The notes below the pieces were generated by a model, which saw only the letters and a list, made by a program, of their open reading frames with translations, was not told where the DNA came from and did no database searches. 64,000 nt of DNA, taken from assembly GCA_016285515.1 (NCBI GenBank), contig JAEEQW010000012.1, positions 1-64,000 on the forward strand, written 5' to 3'. The first letter of the stretch is position 1. Each line of letters begins with the position of its first letter. Origin of the DNA: Bacteroidales bacterium (GTDB lineage: Bacteria; Bacteroidota; Bacteroidia; Bacteroidales; BM520). Shown piece after piece: positions 1 to 13,996 of this stretch. A program made the position numbers and the translations under genes.

Positions 1-1
1 C

Positions 2-1819
2 GATGTGGGTAGGGACGATTGGAGCCAATGGGGCTGGAATTATTTCATAAAACTCGCAAAAGGCACTGACCCAAAAGAGTTTGAGGAGACTGCACATAAT
101 GTCGCTTTTGACCTATTTATGAAAGCATTCGACATTGACGACAGCAATATGACCGAAAAAAAAGCAGCGGATATTGAGGAATATAAAAAAATGATGTCGC
201 CTCATCTTATGTTGTTGACCGACAACTACTTTGCCGAAAATGTCGGGCATCCAGGCAAGTCGGGTGACCGTACCACAACCATCACCCTTTTGGTTATTGC
301 CGTTTTTGTGATGCTCATCGCCTTCATCAACTACATCAACTTCTTCTTTGCCATGGTACCGCTGCGCCTGAAGAGCATCAACACCCGCAAGATATTGGGC
401 AGCAGCCGCTTCCAGTTGGTGATGTCATCGATGGGCGAGTCACTGCTGATGGTGGTCATTGCCTTGGGTCTGGCGGTGGCTGTGGTTACTTTGTTCAGGC
501 AATCCACCTTGGCTGCGCTAATAGACACTCCATTGAATTTCGACAAAAACATGGGTATTGTGGCTTTGACCATCGGTATCGCATTGCTCATTTCGGTGCT
601 GGCCAGCCTTTATCCAGCTTTGTTCTCCACCTCTTTCAATCCCGCTTTTGCCTTGAAAGGTACCCTTGGCACAACTCAAAAGGGCAAAGCTTTCCGCGTT
701 GGCTTGATTGGCTTGCAGTTCACCGTTTCCATCGTGCTGATTATCTGCTCGATTTTTGTCCATCAGCAACGCAGTTTTATGATGGAGCACGATTTGGGCT
801 TCAATCAGGAAAACCTGCTTCAGTCGCACGTGACATGGGACATTGCCAACAACCGTGAGACTGTCGAGAGTCGGCTGAAATCCGATGCTGCCATTAAGGA
901 CATTGCCTGGGGCGATGGACCGTTTGTGGCCAACAACCGCCATATGGCATGGAATCGTCCGTTCAAAGATGGAGATGTGTCATGGCAGGTCTATCCCGTC
1001 TCGTGGAATTTCTTGCGTTTCATGGGCATCGACATTGTGGAGGGCCGCGACTTTACTCCTGCCGACGAACAATCGGAAAACGGGGTATATATCATCAACG
1101 AGACGGCGCAGAAAACGTACGGCATCACCACTGAAGACGAAATCAAGGGTCATAAAGCCGGCCTAGCCGAGATTGCGGGTGTTTGTAAGGACTTCAATTT
1201 CTCTCCTTTGCGCGAAAAGATTGAGCCATTCGCCTTTTATGTGTATGGTAAGGATCCGTGGAACCCGTGCATGAGGCTGTTCATCCGCACTGAAGCTGGC
1301 GTTGATACCCAAGCATTGATGGACCGTACAATAAAAACCATCAATGACCTTGACCCAACACTGGGCGATGGTTTTTCGGTTTGGATGAGACCGTTTGAAC
1401 AATCCATTGAGAACCAGTACAAAAAGGAAAACAACCTCTCGAAGTTAGTCACTTTGTTCACGGTGTTGGCCATTGTCATCTCGCTCATGGGAGTGTTCGG
1501 CTTGGTGATGTTCGAGACGGAGCATCGGCGCAAGGAAATCGGCATCCGCCGTGTGCATGGTGCCACGGTGGAGCAGATTCTGGCGATGTTCAACTCGCGT
1601 TTCGTGAAGATTGTGGTAGTGTGCTTTGTCATAGCAGTGCCCGTCAGTATCGTCATCATGCGACGCTATCTGGAGGGCTTCGCTTACCAGGTGTCGCTGC
1701 ACATCTGGGTGTTCGCCTTGGCATTAGTTGCCGTGCTGGGAGTCACCGTTGCGGTGGTCACTTTGCGGAGTCTGCGGGCGGCTACGGTGAATCCGGTGAA
1801 GTCGCTGCGGACGGAATAA
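2..1819 (+). CDS. FtsX/MacB-type ABC transporter permease (5' end outside window)
   Basis: Inner-membrane permease of the FtsX/MacB superfamily, the type that works with a separate ATPase in mechanotransmission or export of peptides and lipids. The visible 605 codons start inside the first periplasmic (MacB_PCD-like) domain. They then show membrane segments near residues 93-113, 147-167 and 186-207, a further one near 236-252 that opens the second half, a second periplasmic domain (about 255-475), and three C-terminal segments (about 480-503, 533-553, 568-588) ending in the family tail NPVKSL. The two paralogues downstream have 797 and 773 residues, so about 180 residues lie upstream of the window. 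An ATG at base 3 is in another frame and the in-frame GTG at base 5 is not a convincing start. No ATPase subunit is encoded nearby. The substrate cannot be told from sequence. Confidence 0.88.
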   Translation, partial: DVGRDDWSQWGWNYFIKLAKGTDPKEFEETAHNVAFDLFMKAFDIDDSNMTEKKAADIEEYKKMMSPHLMLLTDNYFAENVGHPGKSGDRTTTITLLVIAVFVMLIAFINYINFFFAMVPLRLKSINTRKILGSSRFQLVMSSMGESLLMVVIALGLAVAVVTLFRQSTLAALIDTPLNFDKNMGIVALTIGIALLISVLASLYPALFSTSFNPAFALKGTLGTTQKGKAFRVGLIGLQFTVSIVLIICSIFVHQQRSFMMEHDLGFNQENLLQSHVTWDIANNRETVESRLKSDAAIKDIAWGDGPFVANNRHMAWNRPFKDGDVSWQVYPVSWNFLRFMGIDIVEGRDFTPADEQSENGVYIINETAQKTYGITTEDEIKGHKAGLAEIAGVCKDFNFSPLREKIEPFAFYVYGKDPWNPCMRLFIRTEAGVDTQALMDRTIKTINDLDPTLGDGFSVWMRPFEQSIENQYKKENNLSKLVTLFTVLAIVISLMGVFGLVMFETEHRRKEIGIRRVHGATVEQILAMFNSRFVKIVVVCFVIAVPVSIVIMRRYLEGFAYQVSLHIWVFALALVAVLGVTVAVVTLRSLRAATVNPVKSLRTE

Positions 1820-1843
1820 AAAGCATAAAAAACATCGTTTTCC

Positions 1844-1914
1844 TTGTTATGCGACGATTTATTTGTATTTTTGCCGCAAAATATGCGACGATATGGAATA
1901 AATAACGTCGCAAA
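1844..1914 (+). promoter_or_regulatory. Fic gene promoter with repeated GCGACG operator-like sites
   Basis: A Bacteroidetes-type promoter is visible: TTG at 1844-1846, then 19 bases, then TATTTTTG at 1866-1873. TATGCGACGAT occurs at 1848-1858, inside the promoter spacer, and again identically at 1882-1892, just after the expected start of transcription. An inverted half-copy (CGTCGC) lies at 1906-1911. Sites overlapping the promoter on both sides suggest autorepression, perhaps by the winged-helix part of the Fic protein itself. That link is inference. Confidence 0.6.
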
Positions 1915-1925
1915 AACATGAGAGT

Positions 1926-3215
1926 ATGTATATACATGAACATGAAAATTGGACGGATTTCCGTTGGTCGGCTGAAGCGGTGGCTTTGCCTTTGGACGAG
2001 GTCTGTCGTGAACAAGGAAAACTGCTGGGTAGGTTGAGTGGCCTTGGCTTCGACAGCCAACTGAGAGCTGTGGCCGAGAACTTGACTCGCGATGTGGTCT
2101 ATTCCTCAGAGATAGAAGGCATAAGGCTCAATGCTGATGAAGTACGCTCGTCCATTGCTCGCCGTTTGGGGATTGAGGGTATGAAGTACACGCATTCGTC
2201 GCATTATGTGGAAGGCGTGGTGGCCGTGATGCTCGACGCGATGGAGCACTTTGACCAGCCTCTGACGAAGGAAAAACTCTGCGGATGGCAGTCGGCTTTT
2301 TTTCCGTCGGGCTTCAGTGAGGGTGCTTATATCGAAGTGGGGCAATACCGTACCTACGAGGAGCATATTGTCTCAGGATTTTTGGGGCGTGAGCGTGTGC
2401 ATTATATGGCCCCTTCACCTGACCGAGTGGAAGAAGAAATGCGTAAGTTCATCGACTGGTTCAATTCGGATAAGCCCATTTCTCCTGTGATACGCTCGGC
2501 CATCGTGCATCTGTGGTTCGTGTCCATACACCCCTTTGAGGACGGCAACGGTAGGTTGGCACGTATTCTTGGCGACATGTACTTGGCACGAGGCGACAAC
2601 AGCCGTCTCCGTTTCTACAACATCTCCTCCGAGATCAACCGCGATAAGAACCACTATTACGACATCCTGGAACGGGTGCAACACGGCGATGGTGACATCA
2701 CGGAGTGGGTGGTATGGTACCTGCAAACTTTGCTGGCGGCCCTCCGTGAGGCCTCGGCCACGGTGAGCATGGTGTTAAACAAGAGTTTCTTCTGGATGCG
2801 TTTCGGCAGCGTCCCGTTGACCGAACGTCAGACTAACACGCTGAACCTCTTCCTTGATGGTTACGAAGCCAAGATTACCTCCAAGACCTGGGCGAACCTA
2901 AGCAAATGCTCGAAAGACACAGCGATTCGCGATATTCAGGACTTGGTTGAGAAGCATATCCTTGTGGAGGATATTCCAGGTGCCAAACGTCCCAGCTATT
3001 CCATCAATTATGGTGGCGAGACGGATGACATCGTGAAACGTTTCAGTGATGTGGCTATCCAAGAGGAGGCAGGAGGCTTTTATCTCACTGCGGTTCTCGA
3101 CGGGAAGGCCAAGGTCAGGGAACACCTGCTCGCTTTGGATGCTGAGCGCTATCGGAAAGGTGACTTGCCTTTGGGGAATCTGTTGGCGAAGTACTGCACA
3201 TATTTGGTGGAGTGA
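1926..3215 (+). CDS. Fic-domain protein with N-terminal inhibitory helix (class II type)
   Basis: Fic enzymes transfer a nucleotide part, usually AMP, onto protein hydroxyl groups. The 429-residue protein has an N-terminal DUF4172-like region, the inhibitory-helix motif SSEIEG at 60-65 (pattern [S/T]xxxE[G/N]), and the catalytic motif HPFEDGNGRL from residue 202, with His202 as base. The part after about residue 290 looks like a winged helix-turn-helix. The active-site motif is complete, so the protein is probably active and autoinhibited in cis, as known for class II Fic proteins. The start ATG at 1926 follows a well-placed promoter with repeated operator sites. It sits between two permease genes with no partner antitoxin, consistent with a self-contained accessory cassette. 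The target is unknown. Confidence 0.9.
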   Translation: MYIHEHENWTDFRWSAEAVALPLDEVCREQGKLLGRLSGLGFDSQLRAVAENLTRDVVYSSEIEGIRLNADEVRSSIARRLGIEGMKYTHSSHYVEGVVAVMLDAMEHFDQPLTKEKLCGWQSAFFPSGFSEGAYIEVGQYRTYEEHIVSGFLGRERVHYMAPSPDRVEEEMRKFIDWFNSDKPISPVIRSAIVHLWFVSIHPFEDGNGRLARILGDMYLARGDNSRLRFYNISSEINRDKNHYYDILERVQHGDGDITEWVVWYLQTLLAALREASATVSMVLNKSFFWMRFGSVPLTERQTNTLNLFLDGYEAKITSKTWANLSKCSKDTAIRDIQDLVEKHILVEDIPGAKRPSYSINYGGETDDIVKRFSDVAIQEEAGGFYLTAVLDGKAKVREHLLALDAERYRKGDLPLGNLLAKYCTYLVE

Positions 3216-3247
3216 AGTTGGGAGTTTTTCCACAAGCAGTACAGTAA

Positions 3248-3328
3248 TCTTGGAAAAGTGTCGTAAAATGGCCTGAAAGTTCTTGGAAAAGTGTCAAAAA
3301 GATATGTTTTTTGTCTTGGATAATGACT
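3248..3328 (+). repeat. Orphan operator/promoter array, 33-bp period
   Basis: The sequence TCTTGGAAAAGTGTC occurs at 3248-3262 and identically at 3281-3295. A third, degenerate copy (TCTTGGATAATGAC) begins at 3314, so the three start exactly 33 bp apart. A weak -7-like element (GTTTTTTG, 3306-3313) lies between copies 2 and 3, the same layout as the array before the ATPase gene at 4733. No open reading frame follows on the plus strand, so this looks like the control region of a lost gene. The rest of the 180-base gap holds nothing else recognisable. Confidence 0.6.
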
Positions 3329-3395
3329 TGACGGGGCTGAAATAAGAACTGAACTCTGTTGAGACGTTGAAGAAGGAGTAAAGACACCAGAAAAA

Positions 3396-4733
3396 CTACA
3401 TTGGCCTGAACACAATCTTTTTGTTTGGAAGCTCTCTTTCACGGAGATACATCAACAGATACACAGGGAGATATATGGTTCTGTCGAGGATTTCAATGTT
3501 TTTTGTCGTATATACAAAAGCCTCTTTTATCGCATATTCCTCGTTTTTCATCACATTGCAAAGGGCGTTATGCCGTTTGTAATCCTTCCCAGATTTGATT
3601 TCTATCGGGAGAGCCTGATTGTCGTGTTCAATGACGAAATCGAGTTCTCCCTGCTTTTTACTGTTGAAATAGTATAGGTCGTAACCATGTGAACGTAGTT
3701 CTTGTGCGGCAAAATTCTCAAAAACGGCACCAAAGTTCGCATTGATTTCACCAATTATAACATTGAGTTGAAAACCGGATGAGTACATGCAGGATAGCAG
3801 GCCAACATCATTAAGAAACAATTTGAACAAGTTGCGTTGTTCATTGAGTTTCAACGGCACACAAGGTTTGTCGACATTATATGTGGGTATGGCCACCCCT
3901 GCATCGGTCAGCCAAAGGAAGCTGTTCTCGTATTTTTCGAATTTTGCTCTATCGTTCAGTGATTTTAATATAAATCTCTTGTTTTGGGCATTGAGTTCCG
4001 ACGGAATCCTGTCAAAAATCTCTTTGATTAATAGCTTCTTGTCGGCATATTTGGCAATGTCCTTTTTGTATAGTTTCAGGATGTTCTCCTGCTCGCGCCG
4101 GACATCCTGCATATTGTTGGTGTCCAGATACTTCTCCACAACAGCTGGCATTCCTCCAATCACTAGATATAGACGAAGCAACTCCATCATCTTCTCATGA
4201 ACGACAGAATCGATGGGGGTTCTCTTATCGTAGCATTCATGAAGATGCGTCATCACCTCATCGCTCATGCCCAAAGCCAATGCGAACTCTTCGAAGTCGA
4301 GCGGAAACATTTCTTTTTCAGCCATATAACCGACAGGGACGCTTCGCAAGTCTTTCAATTCGACACCTAAAAGAGAGCCGCTCATGACATAACGATAGCT
4401 TCCTTCATCGACGAGAAACTTAATCGCAGTGACGATTTCTGGACATTCCTGCACCTCGTCGAAGAAAATCAAGGTGCTGCCTGGTTCCAATTTTGTGTCG
4501 GTCAATGCAGAAATGCGCAACAGGATATCGTTTGTGTCGAGCGGATTGGCAAAGATGGTTTTGAGTTTCGGATCTTTGATGAAATTGAATTCCACAAAAT
4601 GCTTGAATGTTTCTTCGCCCACCTTGCGTATGGCATAGGTTTTTCCTACTTGTCGTGCACCTGTTACAAGAAGCGATTTCTTGTCATTCAAAAAGAAATC
4701 TTTTAAATAGTTGTAAATCTTTCTATTAATCAT
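3396..4733 (-). CDS. AAA ATPase (AAA_14) with DUF4143 PD-(D/E)XK-like domain
   Basis: A 445-residue member of the multi-copy ATPase family common in Bacteroidetes. Walker A is GARQVGKT at about 25-32 and Walker B is LIFFDEVQE at about 88-96. The C-terminal DUF4143 region keeps a nuclease-like signature, GELDF followed by PIEIKSG (about 360-382), which fits the D...ExK pattern of PD-(D/E)XK folds. The biological role of the family is not established; defence, selfish-element or toxin roles have been suggested by context only. The gene is alone, convergent with the Fic gene, and is preceded by a three-copy operator array that overlaps its promoter. Motifs appear intact, so it is probably functional. 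Confidence 0.85.
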   Translation of the reverse strand: MINRKIYNYLKDFFLNDKKSLLVTGARQVGKTYAIRKVGEETFKHFVEFNFIKDPKLKTIFANPLDTNDILLRISALTDTKLEPGSTLIFFDEVQECPEIVTAIKFLVDEGSYRYVMSGSLLGVELKDLRSVPVGYMAEKEMFPLDFEEFALALGMSDEVMTHLHECYDKRTPIDSVVHEKMMELLRLYLVIGGMPAVVEKYLDTNNMQDVRREQENILKLYKKDIAKYADKKLLIKEIFDRIPSELNAQNKRFILKSLNDRAKFEKYENSFLWLTDAGVAIPTYNVDKPCVPLKLNEQRNLFKLFLNDVGLLSCMYSSGFQLNVIIGEINANFGAVFENFAAQELRSHGYDLYYFNSKKQGELDFVIEHDNQALPIEIKSGKDYKRHNALCNVMKNEEYAIKEAFVYTTKNIEILDRTIYLPVYLLMYLRERELPNKKIVFRPM

Positions 4734-4740
4734 TTTAAAA

Positions 4741-4820
4741 TGCTTTTTTCCAACTGCAAAAATACAACTATTTTGCTTTTTTCCAACCTAAATTAGGTTA
4801 AGTTTATGCTTTTTTCCAAC
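4741..4820 (-). promoter_or_regulatory. Promoter of the ATPase gene with three operator copies at exact 33-bp period
   Basis: On the minus strand GTTGGAAAAAAGCA occurs three times, at plus coordinates 4807-4820, 4774-4787 and 4741-4754, each start exactly 33 bp from the next (about three helical turns). The TTG within the middle copy is 19 bases from a TATTTTTG -7 box (minus strand, about 4758-4765). The copies therefore lie upstream of the promoter, on its -33 element and at the transcription start. This geometry suggests cooperative repression. The core TTGGAAAA is shared with the orphan array at 3248-3328. Confidence 0.7.
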
Positions 4821-4868
4821 TTTTTCATAAAAGTAAGGAAATAGCCTGCATCTGGTTTACACGACGAT

Positions 4869-4906
4869 TGTAAAGAATCTTTACACCACTGTAAAGATTC
4901 TTTACA
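4869..4906. promoter_or_regulatory. Double palindromic enhancer (TGTAAA-N5-TTTACA x2)
   Basis: Two 17-bp palindromes, 4869-4885 (TGTAAAGAATCTTTACA) and 4890-4906 (its reverse complement), are separated by CCAC, giving 21 bp (two turns) from centre to centre. The same double element occurs at 8928-8965 before the next paralogous permease. The centre is about 74 bases upstream of a -24/-12 promoter, a normal position for an NtrC-type activator. The sigma-54 regulator encoded at 14247 is the obvious candidate to bind it (inference). Confidence 0.75.
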
Positions 4907-4960
4907 CTTTTCTTTGAATCTTAAATCTTTAAATCTTTGAATTTTAAGTAATTACATTTT

Positions 4961-4976
4961 TGGCACAATTAATGCT
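4961..4976 (+). promoter_or_regulatory. Sigma-54 (-24/-12) promoter
   Basis: TGGCACAATTAATGCT matches the sigma-54 consensus TGGCAC-N5-TTGCW with one mismatch. GG (4962-4963) and GC (4974-4975) are exactly 10 bases apart, as required. Transcription would start near 4987, giving a leader of about 30 bases before the permease start at 5017. Confidence 0.75.
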
Positions 4977-5016
4977 ATGGGATAATTAATTGTTTTAATT
5001 GTAACCTTGTAGCATT

Positions 5017-7410
5017 ATGAGCAGCTATTTGAAGTTTTTAAGCCGAAACAAACTTTACACCACCATAGAAGCCATTGGCCTCATCGTTTCCATTGCCTTC
5101 GTCATCCTGATTGGCAATTATGTGTATCAGCAGTATTCTGTCGCCTACGGCAACCCTTACCGAAACAGGGTGTATGCCGTTGGAAACCAAGATTATATGT
5201 CGCTATCGTGGTGGGACAAGGCCGTCTTTGAGGACAAGCTTCCCGAGGCCGAAGCCGTGGCCCGCATCTCTGGCTCCGACTATGACGGCTACATCACCTT
5301 CGGCGACGAGCAGCCTGTCAGAGCCTTCATCACCGAGGCCGACCCGGAGCTTTTTGAACTCTTCCCAAGCCTCATTTTGATTGACGGCAATCTCGACGTG
5401 TTCCGCCTCAAAGGGCATTGTCTCGTGTCTGAGTCACTTGCCAACCGCGCCTTCAATGGCGATGCTATTGGTAAACCGCTCAAAGTCAGTTATTTCGATG
5501 AAAAAATTGAAGGTGTGGTTTGTGGCGTGTTTAAGGATGCCGCCAACTCGATGATACCTTACACTGATGTGCTTTTCAATCCCGAATTTGAAGAGCTGTA
5601 TGCCTCGGGTAACCAAAAGCCTTTCAGTAGCATTGGGCAGTATGTGACCTTGATAAAAGTCCATGAAGGCACTGACCGTGAGCAGCTTGCGAAAAAAGTC
5701 GAGGCAGTCGGACTTCCCAATTATTCCGACGGTTTCGTGAGTGCTATGCCAATCTATAACTTGCCAGAGGTTTTTTTCAATGATAGCCAGTGGGTGTTCA
5801 AGAAAGGCAACAAGTCGGTGCTGCAAATGCTTACGGTGGTGGTTTTGTTGCTCTTGCTTTCGGCCATTTTCAACTATGTCAACCTCAACATGGCGCTTTC
5901 TGGAAAACGCGCCAAGGAGATGGCCACACGCCGGCTTCACGGTGCCACGAAAGGCCGTATTGTGATGAAGTACATCGCTGAGTCTGTGACGTTTACGGCG
6001 GTTTGTTTCATGCTGGCCTTGCTGCTGGCTGTCGCCTTGCTCCCGATGATAAACGACTTGCTAAGAGCCGTTTCGGGTGGCGAAACGGGTATCGATGCTG
6101 AGGCATTTGAGCAGTTTGTTCCTGTCCGTTTTGATTGGTCGATGGTCATTGTGGCAGCTTATCTTGTGGCGGTTGTGCTGTTGGGCACTTTGGCGGGCAT
6201 CGCGCCTGCCGCCATCGCTTCGCGTTTCGAGCCGATCGACGTGGTGCGTGGCACCTATCGGCTTCAAACCAAAAGGGTGTTCAGCAAGGTGTTCATCGTG
6301 TTCCAAAACACCATCACCATCGTCCTGATTGCCATGGCACTCCTGATGGAAGTGCAGATGCGCCACATGATGAACCGTCCCACTAACATGCGTTCAGAGG
6401 GCTTGTATTCGTTGCAATGCTGGGTGCAGGACTATTCCGATATAGTGCCGCTCATCGACCGTTTGGAGAAGATTCCGAACGTGAAAGCAGTAGGCTACGG
6501 TCGTGGTTTCGCGGGGCAGATGAACATGGGCACCAGCGTCAAAACGCCCGACGGCGAAATGGTGAACATGCAACTTATCCTGTGCGACGAGACGTATTTC
6601 GATATGCTTGGTTTGCAGGTTGTTGAGGATTTCGGCGTGCCAAAAACCAATTCGGTCTGGATGTCGAAGACTTTGGCTGAAAAACTCGCTTTGAACGACT
6701 CAACGGTGAATTATTACGCCCGACACATGCGCATCAATGGCTCTCGACCCGAGACCGTGGGCGGCGTTTATGAAGACATCCCGACACGCTCGGCTGCGTC
6801 GTCTGAACCCAACCAGTTTTCGGCGGTCATCATCGCGCGTGACGAGGACTTGATATGGGGTAACGGCGTAATGATTGATGTTTCAAACGATTATAAAGAG
6901 ACCGAAAAAGCTATTATGCAAGCCTACACCGACTATTCCGAGGAAAAGAACGGCATGTTCGTTGAACCCGCCCAAAACGGCTTTGTGAAAGACCTGATTA
7001 ATGTGCTACTCCAACCTGCGAAGATGGCTATGCGCCTGCTTGAACTCTTCATGGTGCTTTCGGTGCTGATTTCCCTGCTCGGCCTCGTTGCCATGAGCAC
7101 CTATTACAGCGAGCAAAGCACCAAGAGCATTGCCGTGCGCAAGGTGTTTGGCAGCAATGTCCACCGCGAGTTGTGGCGCACGGTGAAGGATTACATGATT
7201 CTCGTCGGCATCGCCGCACTCATCGGGATTCCGCTTGCCGTTTGGTTCTGCGGTAAATATTTGGATCGCTTTGCCTACCGCATCGAGCATTATGGTTGGA
7301 TTATCATCGTGGCGGTTATCCTTGGTGTGCTGATGGCCTTCCTGTCGGTGCTTTGGCAGACCTTGAAGGCGGCGCGGACTAATCCTGCGGAGGCGTTGAA
7401 AAAAGAATAG
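5017..7410 (+). CDS. FtsX/MacB-type ABC transporter permease
   Basis: A 797-residue inner-membrane permease. One N-terminal membrane segment (about 15-38) is followed by a periplasmic MacB_PCD domain. The first FtsX block has segments near 269-292, 323-343 and 375-398, then a segment near 425-445 opens the second periplasmic domain. The last FtsX block has segments near 672-692, 725-744 and 760-780, with the tail NPAEALKKE. The start (MSSYLKFLSRNKLYT) is nearly identical in the paralogue at 9183, so both starts are secure. The gene has its own sigma-54 promoter and upstream double palindrome, suggesting stress-responsive activation by the local NtrC-type regulator. A role in antimicrobial-peptide or envelope-stress export is inference; the ATPase partner is not in the window. 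Confidence 0.92.
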   Translation: MSSYLKFLSRNKLYTTIEAIGLIVSIAFVILIGNYVYQQYSVAYGNPYRNRVYAVGNQDYMSLSWWDKAVFEDKLPEAEAVARISGSDYDGYITFGDEQPVRAFITEADPELFELFPSLILIDGNLDVFRLKGHCLVSESLANRAFNGDAIGKPLKVSYFDEKIEGVVCGVFKDAANSMIPYTDVLFNPEFEELYASGNQKPFSSIGQYVTLIKVHEGTDREQLAKKVEAVGLPNYSDGFVSAMPIYNLPEVFFNDSQWVFKKGNKSVLQMLTVVVLLLLLSAIFNYVNLNMALSGKRAKEMATRRLHGATKGRIVMKYIAESVTFTAVCFMLALLLAVALLPMINDLLRAVSGGETGIDAEAFEQFVPVRFDWSMVIVAAYLVAVVLLGTLAGIAPAAIASRFEPIDVVRGTYRLQTKRVFSKVFIVFQNTITIVLIAMALLMEVQMRHMMNRPTNMRSEGLYSLQCWVQDYSDIVPLIDRLEKIPNVKAVGYGRGFAGQMNMGTSVKTPDGEMVNMQLILCDETYFDMLGLQVVEDFGVPKTNSVWMSKTLAEKLALNDSTVNYYARHMRINGSRPETVGGVYEDIPTRSAASSEPNQFSAVIIARDEDLIWGNGVMIDVSNDYKETEKAIMQAYTDYSEEKNGMFVEPAQNGFVKDLINVLLQPAKMAMRLLELFMVLSVLISLLGLVAMSTYYSEQSTKSIAVRKVFGSNVHRELWRTVKDYMILVGIAALIGIPLAVWFCGKYLDRFAYRIEHYGWIIIVAVILGVLMAFLSVLWQTLKAARTNPAEALKKE

Positions 7411-7451
7411 ATTTTGAAAGATTTCTTGCCGCAGGCAATAAAAAAAAGTAT

Positions 7452-7494
7452 TATCCTTGCAAAATAATATGTTCGCAATTCGCGAACAGCGAAC
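7452..7494 (+). promoter_or_regulatory. Promoter with GTTCGC/GCGAAC operator-like repeats
   Basis: A near-consensus -7 element TATCCTTG lies at 7452-7459. Just downstream are GTTCGC (7471-7476), then AATTC, then GCGAAC (7482-7487), which together form an inverted repeat. A further GCGAAC follows at 7489-7494. The position at the likely transcription start, ahead of a helix-turn-helix gene, fits autorepression. Confidence 0.5.
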
Positions 7495-7527
7495 AATTAG
7501 ATATAAATAACTAATAAATAATGTGTT

Positions 7528-8043
7528 ATGAAGCCACAAGATATTCTTATTTTGTTAAAAGAACTAACATCTAAAGGACAAAATTTGTCGTGTAGGAAAT
7601 TGGCGGAGGCTTTGGGAATGAGTGCTTCAAGCGTTAGCGAAAGTCTTGAACGATGCCGACAAGTGCAGCTTGTTGATCGTAACAAAAAACGTGTGAATAC
7701 GATAGCTCTACAAGAGTTTCTTATACATGGTCTTCAATATGTGTTCCCTGCTGTAACAGGGCGTGTCGTCCGTGGTGTACCCACATATATAAGTGCTTCT
7801 CCTTTACAAGATAAAATAGCTAATAGTAATGAGAGTTATGTATGGCATTATGCCAAAGGAAACGCACGTGGGCAACAAATCGAACCGTTATATTCATCGG
7901 TGCCGGAAGCTGCGCTTCAGGATAACGATTTATATCAGTTGCTGGTCATCGCAGATACACTGCGAGTCGGTCGTGCACGCGAAAAAGAGATAGCTATTGA
8001 AGAACTCACAAAACACATCAACCGCTATGTCCAAAACCAATAA
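7528..8043 (+). CDS. Winged-helix/HTH transcriptional regulator
   Basis: A 171-residue protein with an N-terminal helix-turn-helix (about residues 4-50, including the recognition-like stretch NLSCRKLAEALGMSASSVSE). The C-terminal half carries a conserved-looking motif (RGVPTYISASPL, then YAKGNARGQQIEPLY) that I recall from regulators paired with small nucleotidyltransferase genes; I cannot name the Pfam family. The downstream start codon (8027) overlaps its last 17 bases, so the two genes are translationally coupled. Its original partner appears to be largely replaced (see the next gene). A base-composition shift toward A/T relative to the flanking permeases suggests it arrived by transfer. 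Upstream GTTCGC repeats probably are its operator. Confidence 0.7.
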   Translation: MKPQDILILLKELTSKGQNLSCRKLAEALGMSASSVSESLERCRQVQLVDRNKKRVNTIALQEFLIHGLQYVFPAVTGRVVRGVPTYISASPLQDKIANSNESYVWHYAKGNARGQQIEPLYSSVPEAALQDNDLYQLLVIADTLRVGRAREKEIAIEELTKHINRYVQNQ

Positions 8044-8932
8044 CGAACGACTGCAAGAAATTGCAGAAGGGATGCAAAACCTTAACGAAAGATTGGTGTA
8101 TGTCGGTGGCGCAATGGCTGGGGCGTATAGTCTGCGCATCCAGCTTGTCAGCGACCTTCATCTGGAGTTTCCACAAAACAGGCAATGGCTGGCACAGCAT
8201 CCATTACAAATAACAGGCGATATATTGCTTGTTGCCGGTGATACAGCATATCTTGATCTGCCGGAATCAGGAAAGAACACTTATCCTGCATACAAGTTTT
8301 GGGACTGGGCAAGTGAGAACTACAGGGAGGTTGTTGTATGTTTGGGAAATCATGACTTTTATGGATATTACGACCTCGCTTTAATACCCGATGGTTATTG
8401 TAAACAAATTCGCAACAATGTGCATGCATATTACAATTCTGTTGTACATTTGGATGATGTTGATATCATTGTTTCCACATTGTGGTCAAAAATCGAGCCA
8501 TATAACGCTTACCTGACAGAACATAATGTCAGTGATTTCGATCGTATTATGTATAATGGTCATCGATTGACTTCGGATGATTTTAATCGTGAACATGAAC
8601 GGTGCATTGCATTTGTTAAGCAAGCGGTGAAAACCAGCAAAGCAAATACCAAAATTGTGCTCACTCATCATGTCCCTACGCAGCTATGTACAGCGAAAGA
8701 GTTCCAAGGTAGTACAATAAATGGTGCTTTTACGGTTGAGTTGGGTGACTATATTGTTGATTCGGGCATTGACTATTGGGTTTATGGTCATTCTCACCGT
8801 AATATTGATGCGCAAATTGGCAAAACCAAAGTTTTGTCAAATCAACTGGGCTATGTATCACAAGACGAATATCTGTCCAACGGATTCACACCTTCCCGCC
8901 ATATTGTTATAAACCTCAACAAGGAATTGTAA
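8027..8932 (+). CDS. Chimeric metallophosphoesterase with nucleotidyltransferase-like N-terminus
   Basis: From about residue 36 this 301-residue protein is a calcineurin-like phosphoesterase with all metal motifs: SDLHLEF (about 42-48), GD (about 66), GNHDFYG, LTHH and GHSHRN. The first 35 residues (MSKTNNERLQEIAEG...LVYVGGAMAGAY) do not belong to that family. They resemble the start of AbiEii-type nucleotidyltransferases, where VYVGGA precedes the catalytic region. Phosphoesterases of this type usually begin directly at the MKIQLVSDLHLEF-like strand, here LRIQLVSDLHLEF. The simplest reading is an in-frame fusion at about base 8130 after loss of the nucleotidyltransferase body. I chose the ATG at 8027, which overlaps the HTH gene, over an in-frame ATG at 7997 deeper inside it. 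The substrate is unknown. Confidence 0.75.
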   Translation: MSKTNNERLQEIAEGMQNLNERLVYVGGAMAGAYSLRIQLVSDLHLEFPQNRQWLAQHPLQITGDILLVAGDTAYLDLPESGKNTYPAYKFWDWASENYREVVVCLGNHDFYGYYDLALIPDGYCKQIRNNVHAYYNSVVHLDDVDIIVSTLWSKIEPYNAYLTEHNVSDFDRIMYNGHRLTSDDFNREHERCIAFVKQAVKTSKANTKIVLTHHVPTQLCTAKEFQGSTINGAFTVELGDYIVDSGIDYWVYGHSHRNIDAQIGKTKVLSNQLGYVSQDEYLSNGFTPSRHIVINLNKEL

Positions 8933-8965
8933 AATTTCTTTACACCACTGTAAAAAATCTTTACA
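8928..8965. promoter_or_regulatory. Double palindromic enhancer, second copy
   Basis: TGTAAA-N5-TTTACA occurs at 8928-8944 and 8949-8965, separated by CCAC, exactly as at 4869-4906. It overlaps the stop codon of the phosphoesterase gene. Its centre is about 74 bases before the -24/-12-like element at 9019, the same geometry as the first copy. Confidence 0.72.
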
Positions 8966-9018
8966 CTTTTAAAAATACGTGTTTTTACAAACCATTGAAT
9001 GTCAAATAATTAAAAGTT

Positions 9019-9033
9019 TAGCACAATAATTGT
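9019..9033 (+). promoter_or_regulatory. Degenerate sigma-54-like promoter
   Basis: TAGCACAATAATTGT lines up with the good promoter at 4961 but has AG instead of GG at -24 and GT instead of GC at -12. The spacing to the upstream double palindrome matches within one base. It is either a weak or a decayed sigma-54 promoter. Confidence 0.5.
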
Positions 9034-9038
9034 TTCCT

Positions 9039-9152
9039 GTCATTTCGACCGAAGCGTAATAAAATGTAGCGAAGTGGAGAAATCCTCACTTCTCCAATGC
9101 AATTGAATAAAAAGGATTTCTCGATTCCGGTTCCGCCTTCTCTCGAAATGAC
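9039..9152. repeat. REP/MITE-like 114-bp element with terminal inverted repeats
   Basis: The element begins GTCATTTCGA (9039-9048) and ends TCGAAATGAC (9143-9152), perfect inverted ends. An inner inverted pair, GAGAAATCC near 9078 and GGATTTCTC at 9114-9122, adds more foldback. It has no coding content and sits between the promoter-like element and the start of the permease at 9183, so it would lie in the mRNA leader. Confidence 0.7.
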
Positions 9153-9182
9153 AAAAAAAAAGCAACAAATAATAAACAAGAA

Positions 9183-11504
9183 ATGAGCAGTTACCTGAAA
9201 TTCCTCTCCCGAAACAAACTCTACACCGTCATCGAGGCGGTGGGCTTGGCCGTGAGCCTCGCTTTTGTCATCATCATTGGGAGTTATGCGTGGCAGCAAT
9301 ACAGCATCACGCGCGAAAGCCCCGACCGAAAGAACATCTATTGCTTCGGCATGCCTGGTTATCTTGGATTGACCTACGCTTTTGTTGATGAGGTGACCGA
9401 CCGTGTGCCCGAAGTGGAACTTGCCGTTCGGTATTGCAACGAGGCCAACCCGCCATCAATGCTGGTCGAGGGCGAAGAGGTTGAAGTCTCATACGCCGCT
9501 GTCAGCAAAGAGTTTTTCACGATGTTTCCTTACTTCAAATTCGTCGAAGGCGGACCGGAAGGCCTCGAAGTGCCTTTGAATATTATCGTGAGCGAGCGTT
9601 TTGCCAGAAAATACGACCTCAAGGTCGGTCAAACTATGGATTTGATTCTTGACAAATATGTCATCATCGGCATCCTTGAGGATTTCCCCAACACGGTGTT
9701 TCCTTCTGCGGATGTGATTGTCAACGAGCGCGACCGGTTCAACAAGGTTGCATGGGATACGCCTTACGACCGCTACGGATCGACCATTTCTTTCGTCAAG
9801 TTCGCCGAAGGCACCGACCCGCAGGTGATTTACGACAAAGTGGAGCTGGTCTGCAAGGAGATTTATCCCGACATGTACGGTCAGGCCTTCTTCGAACGCT
9901 TGGACATGACCCGCTTCGACCAATTGTTTTTTAAGGACTTCGGTGGGGCTAATAAGCAATTGAAGCATGGCGACCTGAAAACGCTGAAAATGCTTGCAAT
10001 CGTAGGGCTATTGCTGTTACTCTCTGCGGTGTTCAATTACATCAATCTTTCGTTTGCCCTCACAGGAAAACGCGCCAAGGAGATGGCTACGCGCCGCTTG
10101 CTTGGAGCGCAGAAGGGTGAGATTGTTTGGAAGTATATCGCTGAATCATTAGCGTTTACGGCGGTTTGTTTTGGCCTTGGATTGCTTTTGGCCTATATGT
10201 TTGCGCCTTCGGTCAATGCCTTGCTCAACAATCCCGATATCCCGATAAAGGTGCAGGTCCCCCCGATGTATTTCCTGGTTTATCTTGTGATTATTGTGGT
10301 GGTGGGTGTGCTCAACGGTATCATTCCGGCCTTCTTTGCGAGCCGTGTGGAGCCTATCGATGTGGTGAAAGGCACGTTCCGCCGCAACACGAAAATGGTG
10401 TTCAACAAGGTGTTTATCGTCATCCAGAGTGCTTTGGCGGTCTTCCTCATCGCTATGTCCATCGTAATGGAGGCGCAGTATCGCACCTCATTGAACCGCC
10501 CGATGCACTGTAATACGAAGGACTTGTATTATCTGGCCGTGTTTGGTTCGTCACCGCAGTCCGACTTGTATGAAAGACTTGAAAAATTGCCTTGCGTGAA
10601 AAAGATTGGCCGAAGCAGATGCGTTCCAGGATGCTTGTTTGGTGGACAATACAGTTTGACTCGTGACGGGCAGAATATCGGGTATTACCATTTGCAGATG
10701 GATACTGTTGCTTTTCAAATGTTTGACTTTGAAATCCTTAAAGACTACCAGACGCCACTTTATAATACGGTTTGGTTCGGCGAGCGGGCTTTTACTGCCA
10801 CCGGGCTTACCGAGGAGGATCACGACATCCCGACTTTAAGAGAAAGGACGAACAACTGCGAGCAGGTGGCTGGCGTGATTCGTGACTTTCCCGTCGCTTC
10901 GAGCAATATGGGGGAGGAAGAGTACCAGATTATCAGCATCACGAAGGCAGAAGACATCAGATATGGTGGATTCGTGATGGAAATCGTTGGTGACCATGCC
11001 GAAGCCAAAAAAGCCATTCATGAGGTAGTTGATGAATGGCGTGACGGCGAGTTGCTGCAACAAGTCGCTGATGGTTTCATTGATGATTTCTACCGCGACG
11101 CGCTGAAGCCTGCCAAAAACAATATGCGCCTGATGGAAATCTTCATGTTGCTTGCCGTGCTGATTTCGCTGCTCGGCCTTGTCGCCATGAGTACCTATTA
11201 TGCGGAAGAGAACGCCAAAGGCATCGCCGTCCGCAAGGTGTTTGGAGGCACCGTCTCGAGCGAGACCTGGCGCACCGTCAAGGAATACATGATTTTGGTC
11301 GCAGTGGCCTGTGTCATCGGTGTCCCGCTCGCAATCTGGGCGGCGCAGCGTTATCTTGAAGGTTTTATAGTCAAACTCGAAAACTATGGTTGGGTCTTTG
11401 TCCTCGCTGTGGTCATTTCCCTGCTGATGGCCTTCGGCTCGGTGCTCTGGCAGACGTTGAGGGCGGCCAAGACGAATCCGGTGGATGTATTGCAGAAAGA
11501 GTGA
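9183..11504 (+). CDS. FtsX/MacB-type ABC transporter permease
   Basis: A 773-residue paralogue of the gene at 5017, sharing the N-terminus MSSYLKFLSRNKLYT and the block KRAKEMATRRL in the first FtsX domain. The same plan is visible: an N-terminal membrane segment, a periplasmic domain, FtsX segments near 270-292, 318-340 and 362-384, a segment near 418-438, a second periplasmic domain and three C-terminal segments, ending NPVDVLQKE. It has the same upstream double palindrome as its paralogue, but a degenerate -24/-12 element and a REP-like insertion in the leader, so its expression may differ. Substrate unknown. Confidence 0.92.
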   Translation: MSSYLKFLSRNKLYTVIEAVGLAVSLAFVIIIGSYAWQQYSITRESPDRKNIYCFGMPGYLGLTYAFVDEVTDRVPEVELAVRYCNEANPPSMLVEGEEVEVSYAAVSKEFFTMFPYFKFVEGGPEGLEVPLNIIVSERFARKYDLKVGQTMDLILDKYVIIGILEDFPNTVFPSADVIVNERDRFNKVAWDTPYDRYGSTISFVKFAEGTDPQVIYDKVELVCKEIYPDMYGQAFFERLDMTRFDQLFFKDFGGANKQLKHGDLKTLKMLAIVGLLLLLSAVFNYINLSFALTGKRAKEMATRRLLGAQKGEIVWKYIAESLAFTAVCFGLGLLLAYMFAPSVNALLNNPDIPIKVQVPPMYFLVYLVIIVVVGVLNGIIPAFFASRVEPIDVVKGTFRRNTKMVFNKVFIVIQSALAVFLIAMSIVMEAQYRTSLNRPMHCNTKDLYYLAVFGSSPQSDLYERLEKLPCVKKIGRSRCVPGCLFGGQYSLTRDGQNIGYYHLQMDTVAFQMFDFEILKDYQTPLYNTVWFGERAFTATGLTEEDHDIPTLRERTNNCEQVAGVIRDFPVASSNMGEEEYQIISITKAEDIRYGGFVMEIVGDHAEAKKAIHEVVDEWRDGELLQQVADGFIDDFYRDALKPAKNNMRLMEIFMLLAVLISLLGLVAMSTYYAEENAKGIAVRKVFGGTVSSETWRTVKEYMILVAVACVIGVPLAIWAAQRYLEGFIVKLENYGWVFVLAVVISLLMAFGSVLWQTLRAAKTNPVDVLQKE

Positions 11505-11510
11505 ATTATG

Positions 11511-11539
11511 TTTTTTCGGTAATTTTTTTTCGGTAATTT
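11511..11539. repeat. Tandem TTTTTTCGGTAATTT direct repeat
   Basis: TTTTTTCGGTAATTT is present at 11511-11525 and 11525-11539, directly before the ATPase pseudogene. It could be what is left of that gene's operator array, by analogy with the arrays around the intact ATPase genes. Confidence 0.4.
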
Positions 11540-11550
11540 GTGAAAAAACG

Positions 11551-11966
11551 GCGGTTTTCGACAGCGTGGCCACCCGAAGCGTGAAATTGCGCAAGCAGTT
11601 CGTCACGTTCCTGAAGTCGCTAAGTGCGGGTTTCGGCTACGACACCATCCAAAACATACCTACTTTTGATGTCAAGTTGGGCGATGTGCAGAACCCTGAA
11701 TACACTTTGGCGGAAATTTTTGGTTACCTTTAAAAAGTCGATAAGCGCTGTATCATTGTCATCGACGAGTTTCAGCAAATCACGCGTTATCCTGAAAAGA
11801 ATGTAGAGGCTTTGTTAAGGACTCATATTCAGAAACTTTCCAACGCTAATTTTGTATTTTCGGGCAGTCAGCGGAGGCTCATGGAAGAGATGTTTTTCTC
11901 GTCGAAAAAACCTATTCCATTTCCGACCCATTGATGAAACTATGGTTGGATAGAAGAAAAGTTTGA
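11551..11966 (+). pseudogene. Decayed AAA ATPase (COG1672/PF01637-like)
   Basis: The reading frame gives a family-typical stretch: SVKLRKQFVTFLKSLSAGFG, then PTFDVKLGDVQNPEYTLAEI. An in-frame TAA follows at 11731. The same frame continues as KRCIIVIDEFQQITRYPEKN (Walker B region) and ANFVFSGSQRRLMEEMFFSS, before a frameshift and a stop at 11964. The Walker A region is missing upstream and the C-terminal domain is gone. It is therefore an inactive remnant. Together with the remnant at 22984 and the two intact relatives, it shows repeated gain and loss of this ATPase class here. Confidence 0.8.
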
Positions 11967-11996
11967 ATTATAGGGGCTCTGTCATAAATCATATCT

Positions 11997-12143
11997 GGTC
12001 AATATGACCGGTACGTCATATCATAATATCATATTAAAAAAACAAAAAAATATCAGCAAAAAGTAATGTATAACAAACTTTTTGTACCTTTGCACCACTA
12101 AGTCGAAGTGGTATACTTTTGAATTATTTTTGGTATACTTTTG
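11997..12143 (+). promoter_or_regulatory. Upstream region of the M28 peptidase gene: palindrome and three possible -7 boxes
   Basis: An inverted repeat GGTCA-ATA-TGACC lies at 11997-12009. Three -7-type boxes follow: TACCTTTG at 12085-12092, and TACTTTTG at 12114-12121 and 12136-12143, the last two within a direct repeat TGGTATACTTTTG 22 bases apart. The start at 12179 has a 35- to 85-base leader depending on which is used. No sigma-54 signature is present here. Confidence 0.45.
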
Positions 12144-12178: not shown

Positions 12179-13996
12179 ATGAAAAAACTACTTTCAACGC
12201 TATTTGCGCTGGCCTTGTCCGCAGTGATGATGGCCGGCAATTTCGTGATGCTTCCTTATTCGGGACGTACCGAACTAGAGAAGCATTTTTCTGACCCGAA
12301 CCTAACGGTGCATTTCTACACCAATTCAGAAATCTTCGCCACGGCAGAACACTTCGATGCCGCAACTATGGTGATGCTTGACGAGAATGCCTTTTCAACC
12401 AACGACACTTACACGTTGGTATATTGTCCGAAAGAACAACAGCAGAGTTACGATGCGCTGTATGCCACACAAGATTATATCATAGTGAGTGGGGCTGCTA
12501 TGCCACATAAGAACGACGGCACAGTGGCAATCTTCAACAAAAAAGCGAGCCTGCCTCACCTCAACCGCGATTTTCCTGTGGTGACCGAAGAAAACCCAAC
12601 CATCCTCGAGATGTTGAGCCAAGTGAACTGTGATTCGATTGAGGCCACCGTGCAGCACCTTCAAAACTATGGCCACCGTTTGTGGAACTCCGACAATGCC
12701 TTTGCAGCTTCTGACTGGATTGCGGGTCGCATGCTGGCCCTCGGATTAGAGGTGGAGCAACAGCCTTTCTATGCCAGCACATGGTTTGGCAGTGGTGAGG
12801 CGGCACCCAATGTCATTGGTATCCAGCGCGGTACGCTCTATCCCGACATCTATGTGGTGTGCGGTAGCCATTTCGATTCATTCTCCTGGGAGGCCTATAG
12901 TGGTGGCCAGGCACCTGGTGCCGACGACAATGCCACGGGCGTGGCCAGTGTGCTGGAGAGCGCAAGAATCATGACACAGTATGAGTTTGAATACAGCATC
13001 ATCTATTGCGCTTTCGGCTGCGAGGAAATGGGCCTCTATGGCAGCGAGGCCTACGCTTCACGTTGCCAACAGCAAGGTATGGACATCATCGGTTACTTCA
13101 ACAACGACATGAATGGCTACCTCTATGGTAACCAAATCCACATCGACTGCATCTATCCTAATTCGGTACAGCCAATAGGCACTTATTACATGAATGTCGG
13201 CAGCGTTTATTATCCTGAGTTGCCCATCCGTCACGTCAACTTCAACGAAGGCGACAGCGACCACACTTCTTTTAATAATCACGGCTACATGGGCATCTAT
13301 CCTTTCGAGGATTATCAACACTACAGCCCATACATCCACACGACTAACGACTTGATTGGCCCCAGCGTGACTAGTTTCGCAATGTCGCAGCAGTATTGTC
13401 AGATGAACATCGCCTGCCTTGCCGAGATTGCCAATCCTGTGGAAGAAATACCGCATGTGTATTGTAATCCGGTGACTAATTTTTTTGTTGAACTTCCTGT
13501 GGGAAAAGAATTAAGTGCAGTTGTTTTGTGGTGGGAAGCTCCCGAAGAGGGCTCGACTGGCGAATTGGAGCATTTTGACGTTTATCGCGACAGTGTAATG
13601 ATTGCCACTGTTGAAATAAATCCTGACCCCACGTATCAATATAGTTATTTGGATACCATCACAGTTGGTGATTCGGCGGAGTACTTTATCATGGCAGTAT
13701 ATAGCGACGGTTGCGAGGCTCCTTCGCAAACCGAAATAGGCTATGGTATTGATGGAATTGAGGAGTCGGTGTCTCATGTTTTTGTCCATCCCAATCCTTC
13801 CAACGGCACTTTCAACATCAATCTCGGCAAAAGCCAATGGAACGTGGAAGTTTACGACATAATGGGCAGAAAGGTCTATGAAAGCCGCATGGAAGGCAAC
13901 TCCATCATCGACCTTGGACTATACCCAAAGGGATTGTATTTCCTGAAAGCCAATAACGAAAGCAGGACGCTGACGGCGAAGATGGTGCTTCGCTAA
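12179..13996 (+). CDS. Secreted M28-family zinc aminopeptidase with T9SS sorting domain
   Basis: A 605-residue protein with a signal peptide (about 1-20), an N-terminal inhibitor-like region, and a peptidase M28 domain (about 150-430). Expected metal/catalytic residues are visible: His231 (SHFDS), Asp249 (GADDNATG), Glu282-Glu283 (GCEEMG), Asp310 (NND) and His387 (YIHTTND). A fibronectin-like region follows, and the last 80 residues have the type IX secretion sorting pattern (HPNPSNGTFNI ... DIMGRKVYE ... GLYFLKA). It is therefore likely exported to the cell surface or medium to release amino acids from peptides, feeding the amino-acid fermentation suggested elsewhere in the window. Confidence 0.92.
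   Translation: MKKLLSTLFALALSAVMMAGNFVMLPYSGRTELEKHFSDPNLTVHFYTNSEIFATAEHFDAATMVMLDENAFSTNDTYTLVYCPKEQQQSYDALYATQDYIIVSGAAMPHKNDGTVAIFNKKASLPHLNRDFPVVTEENPTILEMLSQVNCDSIEATVQHLQNYGHRLWNSDNAFAASDWIAGRMLALGLEVEQQPFYASTWFGSGEAAPNVIGIQRGTLYPDIYVVCGSHFDSFSWEAYSGGQAPGADDNATGVASVLESARIMTQYEFEYSIIYCAFGCEEMGLYGSEAYASRCQQQGMDIIGYFNNDMNGYLYGNQIHIDCIYPNSVQPIGTYYMNVGSVYYPELPIRHVNFNEGDSDHTSFNNHGYMGIYPFEDYQHYSPYIHTTNDLIGPSVTSFAMSQQYCQMNIACLAEIANPVEEIPHVYCNPVTNFFVELPVGKELSAVVLWWEAPEEGSTGELEHFDVYRDSVMIATVEINPDPTYQYSYLDTITVGDSAEYFIMAVYSDGCEAPSQTEIGYGIDGIEESVSHVFVHPNPSNGTFNINLGKSQWNVEVYDIMGRKVYESRMEGNSIIDLGLYPKGLYFLKANNESRTLTAKMVLR

Follow-up and report, generated by a model that had tools for sequence, protein, structure and literature searches.

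Cooperative assembly on directly repeated boxes is a property of the MalT-type STAND/AAA+ regulators, and iterons are direct repeats with a spacing of roughly two turns that are read by a winged-helix Rep protein that regulates itself. Here we describe an array of direct repeats over the promoter of an AAA_14-DUF4143 ATPase gene in a Bacteroidales bacterium (GenBank assembly GCA_016285515.1, contig JAEEQW010000012.1, positions 1 to 64,000; this stretch of 64,000 nucleotides is hereafter called the window). The window system shares an AAA+/STAND ATPase and directly repeated sites with MalT and other regulators of that kind. However, MalT has a C-terminal helix-turn-helix of LuxR type, of which there is none in the window ATPase (Pfam gives AAA_14 and DUF4143 only), whereas here recognition points to an internal winged helix beside a nuclease-type domain, and the sites lie at the gene's own promoter. 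The initiators Orc1/Cdc6 and DnaA, acting on repeated boxes, have AAA+ and winged helix in common with the window ATPase, and Orc/Cdc6 structures are among its best Foldseek matches; the differences are that no origin context is seen, that a single gene is involved and that the units are paralogue-specific. Iteron plasmids with Rep autoregulation (treated in PMC4980987) are similar in their direct repeats and in a winged-helix reader controlling its own gene, but the window protein is an AAA+ ATPase-nuclease in which Pfam finds no Rep family, and its repeats are on the promoter. An autoregulatory operator array is thus known in principle. What is new is that the arrangement is family-wide, with clade-fixed spacing and paralogue-specific sequence, and that it is tied to a very common uncharacterised defence candidate. 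The arrays at DUF4143 ATPase promoters are real, systematic and, as far as we found, previously undescribed: the open-licence literature gave no earlier description of promoter arrays for DUF4143 or for the corresponding PADLOC system PDC-S01, although one may exist elsewhere.

The repeated unit of the window, GTTGGAAAAAAGCA, is 14 base pairs (bp) long and is present in three exact minus-strand copies with starts spaced by 33 bp (Table 1), as an earlier note made from the letters of the window had described. The TTGG starts of the units are at -86, -53 and -20 from the start codon, and at -55, -22 and +11 with respect to the -7 box. The copies are therefore upstream of the promoter, on its -33 element and just past the start site, which bears out the placement given in that note. 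Its further claim that all sites occupy one face of the DNA is only roughly right, since 33 bp correspond to 3.14 turns at 10.5 bp per turn and each site is turned by about 50 degrees from the one before. All three exact occurrences of the 13-mer TTGGAAAAAAGCA in the 2.58-Mb genome belong to this array. When 464 kb of the genome were scanned irrespective of gene positions, the five period-33 self-matches scoring at least 14 were all at DUF4143 loci. Two other identities of the repeats were considered and rejected. A structured RNA element was discarded after an Rfam search of window positions 1-12000 matched no known RNA family, and a CRISPR array because the units of 13-16 bp lie over a promoter, the period is kept per ATPase clade and the five neighbour genes scanned are not cas genes.

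The arrangement is not peculiar to this gene, and more than 200 related genes were compared in all. The survey covered 40 genomes of the order, 37 of them with matches, and yielded 112 DUF4143 genes with a usable start in 29 genomes; an array was counted as detectable when its self-match score reached at least 12 within -200 to +45 of the start. By this measure 59 of the 112 genes have an array, with a best period of 33 bp in 23 genes, 32 bp in 9, 23 bp in 15 and 22 bp in 3. The remaining nine show scattered values, and they include the window gene itself, because a palindromic repeat further upstream outscores its 33-bp array by one. The same score was reached by only 4 of 134 upstream regions of other genes of the source genome (periods 24, 21, 22 and 29) and by 4 of 560 shuffles, none of these controls being at 23, 32 or 33 bp. 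A lack of periodic repeats at other ATPase genes would have spoken for a chance duplication in the window; instead, periods of 33/32 or 23/22 bp recur in 50 of the 59 detectable arrays. Many of the 29 DUF4143 genes of the source genome have a promoter array with the 33-bp spacing but different units (for example TTTCTTGGATTTC, TGTATCCTACTTT and AAAATTGTGAGATTC), and one group has 23-bp arrays, GCCAACTGCCACATC being an example of its units.

The period goes with the clade on the ATPase tree: 33 bp in the window clade, 23 bp in the clade of L005, L010 and L070, 22 bp in a third clade and 32 or 33 bp in others. Since arrays of 23 and 33 bp are found within one genome, it is not the organism that sets the period. 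In a targeted set of the 23-bp clade (52 distinct genes) the best period was 23 in 49 and 46, twice that value, in the other three. Orthologues of the window ATPase (80 proteins, 44-91% identical, many from metagenome bins) have a period of 32 or 33 bp in 62 cases, and their record titles name Bacteroidota, Bacillota, Spirochaetota, Actinomycetota, Verrucomicrobiota, Desulfovibrio and Fibrobacter. The same picture comes from additional DUF4143 genes in 11 of the orthologue genomes, among them genes with 23-bp arrays in Sphaerochaeta and Bifidobacterium; of the 30 loci concerned, at least six apparently repeat genes of the orthologue set.

The sequence of the unit also follows the protein. In the orthologues each unit, in many cases with positions of -86, -53 and -20 relative to the start codon, consists of two parts, the core TTGGAAAA and a part that varies (ACGGAC, GTGTC, GTGTA, GTGGA, ACGGC, AAGCA and others); the 91%-identical orthologue L139 has kept the unit of the window ATPase. 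For an ATPase that reads the array at its own promoter, the variable part is expected to track the residues that contact it. Distances between unit pentamers were therefore compared with those of 15-residue protein windows after regression on whole-protein distance, some of the units being assigned by eye. The best windows of the whole protein were at residues 253-276, in the recognition region of a winged helix that AlphaFold predicts at residues 233-287, with r 0.387, while 95% of permuted maxima were below 0.207. After removal of near-duplicates r rose to 0.424, and the top window was located there in 87 of 100 subsamples. Decoys treated in the same way, taken from the inter-unit spacer and from the sequence upstream of the array, gave about 0 at these residues. 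The 23-bp clade, with independent proteins and units, again had its top window in the recognition region of the winged helix (r 0.265 against a threshold of 0.227, unit positions 1-16). The strongest single pairing is that of residue 264 with unit position 12, K264 going with G and R264 with T or A, a pattern followed by 33 of the 36 G units and by every one of the 16 T/A units. That each ATPase recognises its own array is thus an inference well supported by comparison of sequences, and the self-regulation held possible in the earlier note gains support from both the clade-tracking period and the covariation of the unit with the protein's own winged-helix region.

Among the 23 arrays with a recognisable -7 box, 18 overlap the promoter core, the window array included, and in 16 one unit covers the -33 element. 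Binding over the promoter would block RNA polymerase, so that repression of the ATPase's own gene would be the simplest outcome. It is quite probable, in our view, that the ATPases assemble head to tail, each on its own array, and thereby repress their own promoters. Of the cooperative repression expected in the earlier note, the overlap with the promoter core is what was observed, while repression is what we infer from that overlap. In the mechanism that we propose, the ATPase would read one unit through its winged helix (residues ~233-287, mainly 253-276) and neighbouring subunits would stack head to tail, with a spacing set by AAA+ geometry of about three turns in the window clade and about two turns in another clade. 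Head-to-tail AAA+ stacking is suggested by the lack of dyad symmetry in the direct repeats, together with the difference of one turn between clades (33/23 and 32/22). The stacked assembly would cover the -33 element and the start site, and thereby repress the gene. Each paralogue would have drifted to its own unit, so that many related genes in a genome need not cross-regulate; relief might come with phage infection, the family being a defence candidate.

Several points weigh against this proposal. Many DUF4143 genes have no detectable array, above all the subfamilies of 375-400 amino acids, for which arrays are mostly undetected across the ATPase tree, and some arrays are wholly upstream of the promoter, where they would suit activation too. 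The permutation null takes no account of the tree, and there is a secondary covariation peak at residues 309-330. When only variable positions are used in the 23-bp clade, the value is 0.193 against a threshold of 0.221, with the best window still in the winged helix. The pairing of K/R264 with position 12 is borne out by only four of the seven phylogenetically independent contrasts, which makes the one-residue code a hint and not a rule.

The strongest competitor is an ATPase that, bound to its own array, activates the promoter, as MalT does on its boxes, or that switches between activation and repression with nucleotide state. The arrays of L141, L143, L146, L154 and L156 are upstream of the -7/-33 region, many 23-bp arrays appear by eye to be upstream of the promoter, and the STAND activator MalT is among the Foldseek relatives, besides Orc/Cdc6. 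Nevertheless, the overlap with the promoter core in most arrays that have a recognisable -7 box, several of them with a unit downstream, is better explained by occlusion, and we regard activation as unlikely. The array could also have a broader function as a docking and sensing platform that keeps the ATPase-nuclease stacked and silent until phage takeover frees promoter and enzyme together, coupling induction to activation. Release might occur via competition for binding, altered nucleotide pools or loss of DNA. We put this forward tentatively and rather doubt it; if true, the variety of the units would allow dozens of these guards to share one cell.

A second 33-bp array, overlooked in the earlier note, lies past the 3' end of the ATPase gene, between it and the neighbouring Fic gene. 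Its stretch 3246-3326 aligns with the ATPase promoter arrays of L141 and L143, and its double unit, when sought in 60 related genomes, was found in the window only. From this alignment, it is probably what remains of the promoter of another, now lost ATPase whose specificity differed. Moreover, DNA homology between the window and the 91%-identical relative is confined, apart from a short separate repeat, to positions 3396-4911, that is, gene plus array, which seem to travel together. This extent of the homology, an array that can outlive its gene, the much multiplied family and the invariant nuclease-type residues would all suit an array that is a site for mobility or maintenance of the gene (a recognised end, an iteron or a homing target), instead of or besides an operator. 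However, ordinary transfer also moves a gene and its promoter together, the promoter register is fixed in most arrays, and no integrase, replication gene or terminal repeat was identified, so we give this explanation little credence.

Less probable still is binding of the arrays by some other, unlinked regulator. Mobile genes often have their regulators encoded elsewhere, but with an own unit per paralogue dozens of them would be required; in addition, the window unit has no exact copies elsewhere in the genome, and both period and unit follow the ATPase, in particular its winged helix. Chance, or a recent functionless tandem duplication, has in its favour the mere 14 bp of each window unit, and it is refuted by the same spacing with unrelated units in dozens of related genes and by its absence from the control upstream regions and shuffles.

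Table 1. Features of the window discussed in the text, with positions counted from its first nucleotide.
Feature	Position	Strand	Basis or remark
Operator unit 1 (GTTGGAAAAAAGCA)	4807..4820	-	Upstream of -33 element; unit start -86 from start codon
Operator unit 2 (GTTGGAAAAAAGCA)	4774..4787	-	TTGG at -33 promoter position; 22 bp upstream of -7 box
Operator unit 3 (GTTGGAAAAAAGCA)	4741..4754	-	At or just past presumed transcription start
-7 box TATTTTTGC	4756..4764	-	Bacteroidota TAnnTTTG type; consensus match, start site predicted
ATPase gene, 445 amino acids; AAA_14 residues 18-150, DUF4143 residues 224-382; PADLOC PDC-S01	3396..4733	-	Pfam, PADLOC, AlphaFold
Winged helix-turn-helix, residues 233-287	3873..4037	-	AlphaFold secondary structure; recognition helix 265-277
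Segment covarying with operator unit, residues 253-276 (recognition helix region)	3906..3977	-	Covariation; weaker replicate in second clade
Second 33-bp array, TTGGAAAAGTGTC at 3250 and 3283, degenerate copies at 3218 and 3316	3218..3329	+	Sequence, alignment
Fic-family gene (DUF4172-Fic, PADLOC SoFic), neighbour	1926..3215	+	Pfam, PADLOC; context only

Both Pfam domains of the window ATPase exceed the cut-offs. Across 81 sequences the Walker residues G25, G30, K31, D92 and E93 are invariant, and so are the nuclease-type residues E363, D365, E378 and K380. The AlphaFold model, made with 81 sequences, has a mean predicted local distance difference test score of 87.5 and a predicted template modelling score of 0.88; its low-confidence residues 257-267 might be a loop that orders on DNA. 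A sequence search for a structurally solved relative found none, and the nearest Foldseek match of the model is the Pyrococcus Walker ATPase 2qen, followed by Orc/Cdc6, MalT, CED-4 and Avs proteins. These are mostly DNA-bound or oligomer-forming ATPases.

By its match to PADLOC model PDLC04792 (E-value 1.1e-190, residues 1-436), the window protein is a member of PDC-S01, a family with Pfam AAA_14 plus DUF4143, and thus a candidate phage-defence gene; L010, from the 23-bp clade, is likewise a member by model match. According to PMC12988326, PDC-S01 ranks fourth in frequency among prokaryotic defence systems and consists of an ATPase with a fused PD-(D/E)XK-superfamily domain, validation being pending for most such candidate systems. 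In rumen genomes, according to PMC13356809, no individual defence locus is more frequent. The passages found on PDC-S01 do not mention promoter arrays, autoregulation or mechanism. A Thermus gene annotated AAA 14/DUF4143/HTH had its RNA increased 6.6-fold with plasmid in Argonaute-bearing cells (PMC4406477), which is a lead only, because other genes rose too. We think that the arrays are valuable in supplying a per-gene readable DNA target for the PDC-S01 ATPases and a pointer to their specificity residues. They open regulation, binding and oligomer geometry to direct testing, and suggest how many paralogues could coexist without cross-talk. In the surroundings of the window ATPase, the Fic neighbour matches SoFic and a phosphoesterase (7997-8932) weakly matches PADLOC PDC-S10, so that the region may be a small defence cluster.

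Some observations at other DUF4143 loci can be added. The promoters of L028 and L029, from a shorter DUF4143 subfamily, have units spaced by 32 bp; those of L028 are palindromic (GCACT-N5-AGTGC), hinting at dimers rather than monomers. L009 (genome C25:91274-91917) is a DUF4143 gene without the N-terminal ATPase part that has the 23-bp array TTTTCCCCGAAAATCTTTTCTAC directly upstream, possibly an array without a working binder. The motif TTTTTGCAAGCAGTACA is exact or nearly exact at five DUF4143 loci of the source genome, about 130-170 bp upstream of L014, L019, L022 and L024 and at C25:91234 near L009. As it is rare in other genomes, its interpretation as the end of a mobile element was dropped, and no boundary is claimed. 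Within the window, palindromic TGTAAAGAATCTTTACA-type elements at 4867-4907 (two copies 21 bp apart) and 8931-8968 are upstream of two MacB/FtsX-type permease genes (5017 and 9183) and are perhaps an operator common to both. Finally, a short tandem repeat of TGGTATACTTT, with period 11, is located at 12109-12143, upstream of the gene at 12179.
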